A DNA stretch of 59,368 nucleotides from the NCBI GenBank assembly GCA_013538855.1, contig JABXJS010000188.1:1-59368 (forward strand), in the 5' to 3' direction. A program made the translations under genes and the position numbers. This stretch comes from Herpetosiphonaceae bacterium. Lineage in GTDB: Bacteria > Chloroflexota > Chloroflexia > Chloroflexales > Herpetosiphonaceae. This document shows positions 17,773-30,419 of the stretch, in pieces (the first letter of the stretch is position 1; each line of letters begins with the position of its first letter). The notes under the pieces were generated by a model. The model made no database searches, had not been told where the DNA came from, and was given only the letters and a program-made list of their open reading frames with translations.

Positions 17773-17794
17773 AAAAAAACCCGCGCTGGGCGGG
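17773..17794 (-). terminator. Riboswitch-controlled terminator before thiB
   Basis: The stem CCCGC/GCGGG (17780-17784 with 17790-17794) is followed by seven Ts on the minus strand. It lies between the TPP aptamer and the thiB start, so it is the expression platform: TPP binding should favour termination. Confidence 0.85.
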
Positions 17795-17802
17795 CCAGGC
17801 CG

Positions 17803-17884
17803 CTTTCCTCCGCTCGTGCTAACGAGATCAGGTTCAAGGGTTCCTCGCGCTGGCGAGATCTCAGCCTCAATGGCCCCCCTAGCG
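17803..17884 (-). promoter_or_regulatory. TPP riboswitch (THI element)
   Basis: Read on the minus strand, the hallmark blocks appear in order: GGGGGGCC, CTGAGA, ACCCTTGAACCTGATCTCG and GTTAGCACGAGCGGAGGAA. These match the conserved core of the thiamine pyrophosphate aptamer. It precedes the thiB-thiP-kinase operon and is followed at once by an intrinsic terminator, so the operon should be switched off by TPP. The 5' strand (17884-17869) can also pair with 17759-17772 downstream of the terminator. Confidence 0.95.
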
Positions 17885-17902
17885 GTGATTAAATTCGGCT
17901 TA

Positions 17903-25988: not shown

Positions 25989-27728
25989 CTAGTACTCTTC
26001 GTGATCGCGAAGGGTACGGCGGATTGCATCGCGGCGCGCGCGGGACTCGCGGCTTTCGCCATCGTCCTCCTCTTCCTCGTCACGCTCATAGCGACGAGTG
26101 CGGCGGCTGGAGCGCCCAGGCTCGGCGTACTCGGGGCTATACTTCGACAGCAGATCGTCGAGGGTCGCGTTACCGCTGTAATCCTCTTCTTCTTCCTCTG
26201 CACCGAAGGTATAGACCTCTGGCTCGCGGGCTGGGCGATCCTGGCGATCGCCACGGCGGCCCTTGCGCGGCTGACGGTCATCAGAGCGCTCCTCACCACG
26301 CAGGGCTGGGTTCGTCCAGTCACGATCCAAGCGCGAGGAGCCGGAGGTTGAGACGGGGCCGACCGGCACCTCTAGGCGCATTGAAAGACTGATGCGCTTC
26401 GAGCCGGGATCGACTTCGAGCACACGCACCTTGACCTGATCGCCGACGGTAACGACGTCCTCGACCTTGCCAACGCGGCCCTCGCTTAGCTCAGAGATGT
26501 GCACGAGGCCATCGCGACCGACGCCCAAGTCCACGAAGGCACCAAACGGCGCAATGCCGCTGACAGTACCATCGAGGATCATGCCTGGAGCGATCGCATC
26601 CAGGTTAACCTCACGGCGGCGTGAGCGCGAGCGCTCCTGATAGCCTTCCTGAGCGCGGCGCAGGCTTAGGCTAATGCGCTGTCCTTCGGCGTCAACCTCC
26701 AGCACGCGGAACGTGTGGCTCTCGCCGACCTGCACAGCGTCCTCTGGGCGCTCGACGCGGCTATCCGACAGCTCGGAGATATGCACCAAGCCGTCTTTAC
26801 CAACCCCGATGTCAACGAACACACCAAACGGTGCAATACCGTTGACGGTGCCATCGACCAGGTCGCCTGGATTCAACTCACCGAGGCGATCATGATCGAT
26901 CTCGGGGCGGCGGGGACCGCGGCGACGGCGCTCGCCATCGCCTTTGGAGCGCATGGTCAAGCTGATGCGGCGCGCCTCTGGATCGACGCTCTTGACGCGC
27001 ACCTTAACCGTATCGCCGATCTGCACGAGATCGGTGGGCGACTCAATGCGCTGATCGCTCATCTCAGAGATGTGCACCAGGCCGTCGCGGCCCACGCCGA
27101 TATCGACGAACACGCCGTACAGCGCGGTGCTCGTAACGCGGCCCTCAAGCTCCATGCCTGGCTCAAGATCGTTCAAGCGGCGCGGCACGGTTGTGTCGTC
27201 GTCCTGAGTTGGCTCGAATACCGCGCCCTCTTCGCTGTCTGCTGTTTCGGCAGCGGGAGCGGCGCTCGCCTCGGCCTCAGCAGCGGGGGCTTCAGGAGCC
27301 TCTGCTTCAGCAGCGGGAGCGGCGCTCGTCTCGGCTTCAGCAGCGGGAGCGGCGCTCGTCTCGGCCTCGGCAACGGCAGCCGCAGCGGATGTCGTCTCGA
27401 CAGGTGCAGCAGTCGTTGCTTCAGGCTCTGAGGCAGCTTCGGCCTCCGCCGGAGCCGCGGCGGTAGCCTCTGTGTTGTCAGCAGCGGGAGCGGCGCTGCT
27501 GACATCGCTCTTGGCGTCGTCATCAGTGTCGTTGTCATCGTCATCGTCATCATCTTTGAGACCGATGCGCTCAGCCACTTCCTCGACAACATCTTCCAGT
27601 TTTTCGGCAACATCTTCAACCATGTCGCCGATCCGTTCGCTGGTCGCCTTGGCGGCATCCACCAATTTCTCGACCATTCCTTCCGACTTTTCCGACTGAC
27701 CCTGCTGAGTCTGCGACTCGTCCGTCAT
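25989..27728 (-). CDS. Three-S1-domain RNA-binding protein with acidic/Ala-rich N-terminus
   Basis: The 579-residue protein has a helical acidic N-terminus (KLEDVVEEVAERIGLKDDDD), a ~110-residue Ala/Glu/Pro low-complexity linker, then three S1 domains at about 185-260, 275-350 and 370-445. Each has the core (G)VFVDIGVGRDGLVHISE or close variant. A charged Arg/Asp/Glu tail follows. It resembles short S1/RpsA-like proteins that bind RNA, but it has only three S1 repeats and is not certain to be ribosomal protein S1. The linker DNA contains a perfect 30-bp tandem duplication (27306-27335 and 27336-27365). The start follows GGAGG, 38 bases behind the ChlD stop. Confidence 0.8.
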   Translation of the reverse strand: MTDESQTQQGQSEKSEGMVEKLVDAAKATSERIGDMVEDVAEKLEDVVEEVAERIGLKDDDDDDDNDTDDDAKSDVSSAAPAADNTEATAAAPAEAEAASEPEATTAAPVETTSAAAAVAEAETSAAPAAEAETSAAPAAEAEAPEAPAAEAEASAAPAAETADSEEGAVFEPTQDDDTTVPRRLNDLEPGMELEGRVTSTALYGVFVDIGVGRDGLVHISEMSDQRIESPTDLVQIGDTVKVRVKSVDPEARRISLTMRSKGDGERRRRGPRRPEIDHDRLGELNPGDLVDGTVNGIAPFGVFVDIGVGKDGLVHISELSDSRVERPEDAVQVGESHTFRVLEVDAEGQRISLSLRRAQEGYQERSRSRRREVNLDAIAPGMILDGTVSGIAPFGAFVDLGVGRDGLVHISELSEGRVGKVEDVVTVGDQVKVRVLEVDPGSKRISLSMRLEVPVGPVSTSGSSRLDRDWTNPALRGEERSDDRQPRKGRRGDRQDRPAREPEVYTFGAEEEEEDYSGNATLDDLLSKYSPEYAEPGRSSRRTRRYERDEEEEDDGESRESRARRDAIRRTLRDHEEY

Positions 27729-27766: not shown

Positions 27767-29832
27767 TCAACGATCAATATGGACAGTTTCCAGCTGCGAG
27801 CGAACTAACTCGGCTAGGCCGACATTTAATTCTTCGAGCTGGTAGTATGCAGCGTTTAGATGATCAGCGAGCTCTTTCGCCAATCCTCGGTAGAAGTTTG
27901 GTAGCTCTGTATCGATCACAACCGCCGGGATCTTCTGGGCGGCGATAAAATCGGCCAGCTGATAGGCCTCTTGCTGCGGGGGCATGTTCGTCATTGCGAC
28001 ATTCGCATGGCCATCGGTCAGCAGCACCATCAGCGGCAGTATCTCACGATCACGGGCGCGGGCGCGCGCGAGCACTTCAAAGCCCAAGAGCATACCACGG
28101 CTTAGCGGCGTCTTGCCGCCAGTGGGCATTGTGCGCAGACGGCGCTGTGCCAGCTCGGCGCTGTTGGTCAGCGGCAAGAGCACAGTTGCCCGATCACGAC
28201 TGAAGCTTACGAGGCCAACCAGATCGCGGCGCTGGTAGGCATCGCGGAGCAGCGATATCACCGCTGCCTTTGTGGCCTGCATACGCGTCTCGGCCGCCAT
28301 CGACCAGCTCGCATCGACCACGAAGCACACCGCGTTGCGCGTCCGCCGCACGCGAATCTTCTCGCGCAGATCGCTGCGCTTCAGAATAACAGCGCGCTTG
28401 ATGTGTGGTCGCCGCCGCTCGCGCTGGAACGGCGCGGCCGCGCGTAGTGTTGCATCAAAGGCGACATCATTCACTTGGCCACGCGGTAGCCGACTAGCAA
28501 TATAGCGGCCTTGCTTGCGCTCGGTGCGCGTGCGCGTGCGCCGACCAGCCGCCTTGCGCCGAATTGAGTCCGCCTGCGTCTCCAGCCGCCGTGGGCGAAA
28601 CTCCTGATTGATATTAAAGATCTTGCCCTCACCACCTTGGGCCTCGCTGCTGGTTGGCGGTGGTGCCCCTTTGGGCGACCCCGTCGGTGGTGTATCGTCG
28701 CCAGCCTCGCTGGCTGGCTCAGCGTCCTCCGACGGGGTTAGGCTTTTTTTGGCGACTCAACCCCATCTAGGCCGCTGTCGAAGCCTTCGCGCTGGGCGGC
28801 AGCGCGCTGCAGCACATCAGAGAGCTGGGCCTCATTGAGCTGCACCTCGCTGAAAGGCTGCCGCCGCATACGGTGCGGCAGCGCAAGCTGCGCAGCATCG
28901 CGAATATCGTTCAGCGAAATGCTTGTGCGACCAGCGAGGGCCGCAACAGTGCGCGCTGTCTCGAGGATGGCAAGATCGGCGCGGTGGCCATCGACCTGTA
29001 GCTCTAGCGCCAGCATCGCCACAGCGGCGATATCTTGCGCCGTGATCTGCACCTGCGGCAGCAGCGCCTTGGCAGCAGCGACCTGCTCGGTGATAGTGTG
29101 CTCGGCAGCATCCCAGTGCTCAGCAAAGCCAACTGGATCGGACTCATAGGCCATGCGCCGCTGCACCACGGCAACACGATCGCGCACATTTTGCAGTCCA
29201 GCGATCTCGACCACGAGACCAAAGCGATCAAGCAGCTGCGGGCGCAGCTCGCCCTCCTCAGGGTTCATCGTGCCAACCAAGATAAAGCGGGCTGGATGTG
29301 AGACCGACACACCTTCGCGCTCGACGGTGTTGACCCCCATCGCTGCAGCGTCAAGCAATATATCGACAAGATGATCATCGAGCAGATTGACCTCATCGAC
29401 ATACAGCAGGCCCCGGTTAACCTGAGCAAGCAGCCCAGGCTCGAAGCGCCGCTGACCTTCGACAAGCGCATGCTCAAGATCAAGCGAGCCAACCAAGCGA
29501 TCTTCGGAGGCGCTCACCGGCAGCTCAACCAGCCGCGTTGGACGCTCAACCACCGGCAGCGTTGCCCCCGCCTCGAAGCGCTCGCGGCACTGCGCACACA
29601 TCCGCTCGGGCTGATCTGGTGGGCAACTATACGGACAGTCAGCAACAACTTGGATGGTTGGGAGCAGCCGCGCCAGCGCACGCACAGCTGTTGATTTAGC
29701 TGTGCCTTTCTCACCGCGAATCAGCACACCACCAATCCGTGGATTGACGGCATTCAACAGCAGCGCTTGCTTGAGACGCTCCTGGCCAACCAGGGCGCTA
29801 AATGGATAAGTCGGACGAATATGTTGTTTCAT
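27767..29832 (-). CDS. chlD: Mg/Co-chelatase D-type subunit made by -1 frameshift (ChlI-ChlD fusion)
   Basis: Reading through the slippery site gives a 688-residue protein: an AAA+ ATPase (1-330), an acidic/proline linker, and a VWA domain. The VWA part has the MIDAS motif DASWSM, TPLSRGM and LLTDGHA. The conserved pre-VWA sequence ([16 protein letters not shown], then [16 protein letters not shown]) lies in the -1 frame upstream of any ATG, GTG or TTG, and that frame is open from 28756. So the VWA domain can only be made whole as a fusion. This is the classic ChlD layout. D and I subunits form the ATP-driven motor that inserts Mg or Co into tetrapyrroles with a large CobN/ChlH subunit, which is not in this window. 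A GTG at 28474 could start a VWA-only product but would cut the conserved linker. Confidence 0.8.
28679..28764 (-). promoter_or_regulatory. -1 programmed frameshift signal: A7 slippery site plus stem-loop
   Basis: Minus-strand order: GGGG (28764-28761, weak SD-like), 10-base spacer, slippery A AAA AAA (28750-28744), a 6-base spacer that includes the zero-frame TAA, then stem CCCCGTCGG (28737-28729) pairing perfectly with CCGACGGGG (28687-28679). A 6-bp inner hairpin (GCCAGC/GCTGGC, 28700-28714) sits in the loop. Tandem slippage of Lys-Lys moves reading to the -1 frame encoding the linker and VWA domain. Confidence 0.85.
28738..29832 (-). CDS. ChlI-type AAA+ ATPase, zero-frame product
   Basis: Ending at the zero-frame TAA gives a 364-residue protein the size of a free ChlI/BchI subunit. 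Walker A is GEKGTAKST (40-48) and Walker B LLYVDEVN (142-149). The [16 protein letters not shown] segment lies near 190-205 and a four-Cys cluster (CPYSC, CAQC) at 66-82. The same gene can therefore yield both I and D subunits. The ATG at 29832 was chosen because the preceding TTG frame start is weak; the ribosome site is poor (AAAG). Transcription begins at a good promoter about 180 bases upstream. Confidence 0.85.
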
Positions 29833-30242: not shown

Positions 30243-30419
30243 ATGTTCGGATTAGGTGTACCTGAACTGCTCATCATCTTAGCGATCCTGGTGTTATTAT
30301 TTGGCGCATCACGCTTGGCCGATCTTGGCGGCTCAATGGGTCGCGGTATTCGCGAATTCCGCCGCGGGCTGCGCGATGAAGACGCACAAGCAGGCACGGA
30401 AAATAAAGAATCCAAGTAA
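30243..30419 (+). CDS. tatA: Sec-independent translocase subunit TatA
   Basis: The 58-residue protein has the TatA plan: a short N-terminus (MFGLGVPELL), one membrane helix (IILAILVLLFG), the hinge, an amphipathic helix (ADLGGSMGRGIREFRRGLRD) and a short polar tail. TatA forms the pore-like assembly that moves folded twin-arginine proteins across the membrane. GGAGG lies nine bases before the ATG. No tatC is adjacent. It is short even for TatA but complete. Confidence 0.9.
   Translation: MFGLGVPELLIILAILVLLFGASRLADLGGSMGRGIREFRRGLRDEDAQAGTENKESK

Follow-up and report, generated by a model that had tools for sequence, protein, structure and literature searches.

The 59,368-nucleotide stretch of Herpetosiphonaceae DNA analysed here (the window) carries on its minus strand a ChlI-like gene whose coding sequence extends over two reading frames. 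The zero-frame ORF (28738..29832, stop included) encodes an AAA+ protein of 364 aa with the Pfam domains Mg_chelatase, AAA_5 and AAA_lid_2, and terminates with CCA AAA AAA GCC TAA, in such a way that the heptamer A_AAA_AAA (28744..28750, minus strand) is followed by the TAA stop (28738..28740, minus strand) 3 nt past the run. The initial annotation had placed this stop directly after the heptamer and inside the spacer that precedes a downstream stem; the second statement holds, and the first has to be corrected by one Ala codon (GCC). In the minus strand at the junction (GTC GCC AAA AAA A|GCC TAA CCC CGT CGG AGG), the −1 frame is closed upstream of the run by a TGA (28757..28759, minus strand) and continues past it as an extension (27767..28744, minus strand) that adds 325 aa past the junction, made up of a linker, a conserved RKQGRY block and a DxSxS-containing VWA domain, up to the stop codon at 27769-27767. 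A one-base backward slip on the run gives the junction P K K S L T P and a protein of 688 aa in total. The first ATG, GTG or TTG of the VWA frame is GTG 28474, after 90 codons without a start, and it sits within sequence conserved across Chloroflexota. Reading of the sequence bears out the lengths proposed for the 364-residue I-type and 688-residue D-type products, and likewise a VWA domain whose −1 frame lacks a start ahead of the conserved GRY block.

The next gene downstream (25989..27728, minus strand) encodes a protein with three S1 domains, and its inferred ATG lies 38 nt beyond the end of the VWA frame, so that the chelatase-like gene does lead an S1-domain gene on the same strand, as annotated. 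On the other side, and divergent from the chelatase-like gene, lies the gene of a small TatA/E-like protein (30243-30419, plus strand). Elsewhere in the window a TPP riboswitch aptamer (17788-17890, minus strand; Rfam RF00059, 65.7 bits) was detected just upstream of an ORF (17739-16600) that likely encodes a thiamine-type ABC transporter substrate-binding protein.

The family and possible function of the products were also studied. The joined protein reaches 795.9 bits against TIGR02442 (putative cobaltochelatase), above the cut-off of 779.45, and its two parts taken separately stay below it (509 and 280 bits). The zero-frame protein gives 436 bits against TIGR02030, under the cut-off of 467, and the score against TIGR02031 (453.9 bits) is under that of 499.6. 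With an A-rich slip site where the I and D parts meet and the VWA domain in the other frame, the gene belongs to the fs-chlD group. A stand-alone second ChlI-like AAA+ gene of the same genome (L210, G000:C145:19248-20279) shows 39% identity, and neither a VWA protein nor a large subunit was found near it on that contig (C145). No phage relatives of the VWA part were found.

That both products still serve as cobalt or magnesium chelatase subunits in their own organism is unlikely. TIGR02442 is indeed the best named family, and six Herpetosiphon relatives (G002, G004-G008) have one CobN/ChlH-type gene each, with no CbiC. Against this, the own genome, 100% complete, holds no large chelatase subunit CobN/ChlH/BchH (PF02514), and CbiC/CobH (PF02570) is absent from it and from all family genomes searched, in such a way that it lacks both CobN and CbiC/CobH of a cobalt (CobNST-type) chelatase and the large subunit ChlH/BchH of a magnesium chelatase; a CbiX-like protein is present. 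The large subunit is also missing from 42 of the 50 non-Chloroflexales genomes with a close orthologue, in agreement with the stage-1 genomes of PMC9227772. The "two chelatase subunits" of the initial annotation are therefore correct as homology, for the joined protein only, and not as function: the name denotes descent here. Since CobN/ChlH and CbiC are both absent, the insertion of metal into a corrin or porphyrin is probably not the task of this motor in its own genome.

The junction was then analyzed for the parts of a −1 frameshift site. A slippery X_XXY_YYZ sequence is present in the zero frame (28750-28744), followed at about 5-9 nt by a stable structure, a stem-loop (28678..28738, minus strand) in which ACCCCGUCGG (28738-28729) pairs perfectly with CCGACGGGGU (28687-28678) over 10 bp. 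The stem had been described as a perfect one of 9 bp after a 6-base spacer; it is perfect, with 10 bp counted, and its outermost A-U pair takes the last A of the TAA stop, leaving a spacer of 5 nt, or 6 nt when that pair is excluded. The inner hairpin was confirmed as a GCCAGCC/GGCUGGC pairing of 7 bp (28718-28712/28706-28700). RNA folding of the junction gave an MFE of −44.9 kcal/mol, against −28.5 ± 3.4 for shuffled sequences (z = −4.8), none of 200 shuffles being as stable, and of 5930 positions sampled over the two strands of the window, 0.32% reached the pairing energy of nucleotides 4-14 past the run (−17.2). No internal promoter or terminator was found at the I/VWA junction. An SD-like GGGG upstream of the run is weak, as had been stated, and is not conserved in the third genus of the family (G001, GAGGGTG), for which it was dropped as a stimulator; an upstream GGGGY that could compete for the CCCC arm, present in the own genome and Herpetosiphon and absent in G001, was dropped as well.

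The window contains seven runs of at least seven A across its two strands, so that the A7 run taken by itself might be fortuitous, which does not hold for its retention in all orthologues. In the family set (n = 8: the own genome, the six Herpetosiphon genomes and the third genus G001), all copies have the A7 run, a stop 3 nt past it and the VWA domain in the −1 frame, the zero-frame stop at the equivalent position being TAG in the seven other members and TAA in the window. The downstream stem was likewise found in the eight copies. In Herpetosiphon it is formed by GCCCCGUCGG/CCGACUGGGGC, with ten pairs around one bulged U (nine pairs in G004), and this bulge shifts the outer half by one base in its pairing; because the pairs change register, the family copies do not allow covariation to be demonstrated column by column for the stem. 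The comparison of homologs called for in the initial annotation thus came out in favor of conservation of both A7 and stem, and the in-frame fusion in close relatives that would have spoken against it was not seen, as 8/8 family members share the shifted arrangement.

Both frames are under purifying selection. Compared with Herpetosiphon, the I part showed a dN of 0.17 and the VWA part a dN of 0.12, each with a dS of 2.9 that is near saturation, so that only the contrast between dN and dS is to be read. Codons 41-90 of this VWA frame, preceded by no start codon and including residues invariant in the phylum, gave a dN of 0.09 and a dS of 1.6 against one Herpetosiphon copy.

These data make it very probable that one gene gives two proteins through programmed −1 ribosomal frameshifting, the reading put forward in the initial annotation and well supported by the sequence parts and by their conservation in 8/8 family members. 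Most ribosomes would pass A_AAA_AAA and stop at the TAA one codon further on, yielding the 364-aa AAA+ ATPase (I-type). Some of them would be held by the GC-rich stem 5 nt downstream while two tRNA-Lys occupy AAA AAA, move back by one base and go on in the VWA frame, yielding the 688-aa protein with I and VWA parts (D-type). Both products share the whole AAA+ domain and probably form mixed rings, in a ratio that would depend on how efficiently the ribosomes shift. What is observed are the parts of the site and how they are conserved, the selection on both frames and the lack of a usable start; from these we infer that a shift occurs, how efficient it is and how the products assemble.

To place the gene in its phylum, distinct Chloroflexota orthologues were classified, 153 of them with enough downstream sequence for folding. 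An A-run of 7 to 10 was present at the I/D junction in 153/153 of the orthologues surveyed. The VWA part is mostly in the −1 frame, an arrangement seen beyond the own family in neighbouring families and across Anaerolineae; it is in frame +1 in four loci and in frame 0 in most Chloroflexaceae copies, and a tree of 152 rows requires no fewer than nine changes of frame relation. Two near-identical Anaerolineales loci (L088 and L155) have A10 and A9, with frame relations +1 and 0, respectively, and this single-A difference may be either real or an assembly or sequencing slip. Exact A9 runs are rare elsewhere, with 2 to 7 per genome in five genomes of Chloroflexales, and in two Chloroflexaceae genomes and one from family f3 the chelatase-like gene holds one of the few.

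The in-frame copies, which comprise Chloroflexaceae genes with A9 or A10 and a −1 stop (L015, L016, L019-L022, L025, L026, L035, L037, L038, L041, L048, L049, L053, L054, L067, L070 and others), have a −1-frame stop 0-3 nt past the run in 29 of 36 cases, where synonymous resampling of the codons predicts 6.2, the 36 copies being related and the 29 stops not being 29 independent events. These stops are TGA, TAG or TAA and arise from varied codon pairs (GCT GAG, GCT AGT, GCT AAT), supporting that it is the stop itself that persists and not a peptide motif. The simplest reading of these sequences is that the Chloroflexaceae in-frame copies would yield the long protein by default and need a slip for the short one, in such a way that the default product seems to have been swapped and the two-product output kept.

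The length of the run was also compared with the structure that follows it. Median proximal pairing energies were −12.8 kcal/mol for A7 (n = 19), −3.9 for A9 (n = 104) and −2.3 for A10 (n = 28), and an energy of −8 was reached by 16 of 19 A7 copies versus 17 of 133 copies with longer runs; the in-frame A7 copies L186 and L193 have no stem. The difference between A7 and longer runs gave a raw Mann-Whitney p of 6e-11, which is uncorrected for descent and only suggestive, and a test of the run/stem trade-off on independent pairs, with only 4-5 independent lineages, was not significant. This pattern fits a requirement of short runs for a ribosomal stimulator that long runs may do without.

Part of it also fits slippage of the RNA polymerase, which could add or drop an A in the run, whereupon some of the transcripts would code for the long protein with no ribosomal frameshift involved. 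Most orthologues have A9 or A10, and many bacteria show signs of selection against slippage at runs of this length (PMC1088944), two complete Chloroflexus-like genomes have two exact A9 runs each, one of them in the chelatase-like gene, and the existence of all three frame relations, with their repeated changes on the tree, points in the same direction. An A/T run of about nine or more, as expected for this process, is found in most orthologues outside the family but not in the window, whose run is only A7; and although an A7 could in principle slip at transcription too, the lineages with short runs usually carry a stable stem at ribosomal spacing, which would be superfluous for a polymerase. 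As the slip run is short, a ribosomal mechanism is likely, and we consider transcriptional slippage quite improbable for the window gene.

Even less probable is that the VWA part is a separate protein produced by re-initiation or from an internal start past the stop. A GGAGGA motif is found just past the stop; yet the conservation of codons 41-90 falls within the 90 codons without ATG, GTG or TTG, and the in-frame fusions of relatives show that both parts work as one chain. Finally, a sequencing error in a true in-frame fusion, or a decayed gene, has hardly any probability left: in-frame fusions do occur in Chloroflexaceae, but they retain the slippery run and the shifted-frame stop, the same arrangement is shared by eight family genomes, among them the finished one of H. 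aurantiacus DSM 785 (L046), and is thus not a sequencing error, the −1 arrangement extends to neighbouring families and Anaerolineae, and both frames are under purifying selection.

Programmed −1 ribosomal frameshifting, the preferred reading, has precedents in this very family, as the initial annotation had stated. Frameshifting in chlD was described in 2013 (Antonov 2013, PMC3711429), with a cluster of fs-chlD genes that includes a Herpetosiphon gene, and again in 2022 (Kuznetsov 2022, PMC9227772), with a discussion of Chloroflexi members that lack a large subunit and a mention that +1 cases exist; Antonov 2020, as cited in PMC9227772, also treats fs-chlD. In E. coli reporters with cassettes of this family, shifting reached 10% for A7, 40% for A9 and 63% for A11 (PMC3711429). 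The window gene shares with the known fs-chlD genes the family, the A-rich slip site, the −1 shift, the downstream structure and the output of a short I and a long D form, and differs from them by its new genus, its very stable stem and a zero-frame stop within the spacer. The phenomenon, the family and the sister genus are already described, and the window gene is a new member; its stem justifies the words "especially clear example", of a phenomenon on record since 2013. A default frame that has flipped while an alternative stop is retained, and the contrast within one phylum of A7 plus stem with A9/A10 without stem, were not found in a literature search with Antonov 2020 outside its scope.

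Two other systems are comparable. The ChlI/ChlD and CobS/CobT motors also combine an AAA+ I subunit with an AAA+/VWA D subunit, but they are encoded by two genes and act with a large subunit (ChlH/CobN), whereas here there is one gene in a genome without the large subunit. In dnaX, slippage is by the ribosome or the polymerase depending on the lineage (Larsen 2000 as cited in PMC3711429; PMC1088944). Although dnaX (DNA polymerase III tau/gamma; ribosomal in E. coli, transcriptional in Thermus) is an unrelated gene, it also produces short and long AAA+ forms from an A-rich slip site. In E. coli dnaX the zero frame leads to the long form, the opposite of the window gene and the same as in the Chloroflexaceae copies.

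With respect to the client of the motor, the best lead is the co-directional S1-domain gene. In 38 Chloroflexales loci it follows immediately and with the same orientation, being the next downstream gene in every Chloroflexales locus long enough to tell, and in 15 loci of Anaerolineae an S1 gene is found upstream on the opposite strand (divergent); six genes of the own genome match S1 domains. This repeated adjacency suggests, without proving it, a link with the AAA+/VWA pair. For the phylum as a whole we tentatively propose, at somewhat less than even chance, that the two-product output is what is selected across Chloroflexota and that the default frame and the mechanism turn over, with A7 plus stem acting on the ribosome and A9-A10 on the polymerase and/or the ribosome; that Chloroflexaceae would be long by default and would retain a stop in the shifted frame so as to continue producing the short form; and that, where CobN/ChlH is absent, as in the own genome, the products could form a non-chelatase AAA+/VWA machine, perhaps together with the RNA-binding S1-domain protein encoded next to them.

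The window gene thus represents a strong and well-conserved natural −1 frameshift cassette, and its orthologues a natural experiment in which one gene within one phylum shows runs of 7 to 10, presence or absence of a stem and each of the three frame relations. Should Chloroflexaceae indeed obtain the short form through a slip within an in-frame gene, the annotation of their seemingly ordinary fused chlD genes would be incomplete. Many genomes keep this two-product motor without a large subunit, and its role thereby becomes a testable question.
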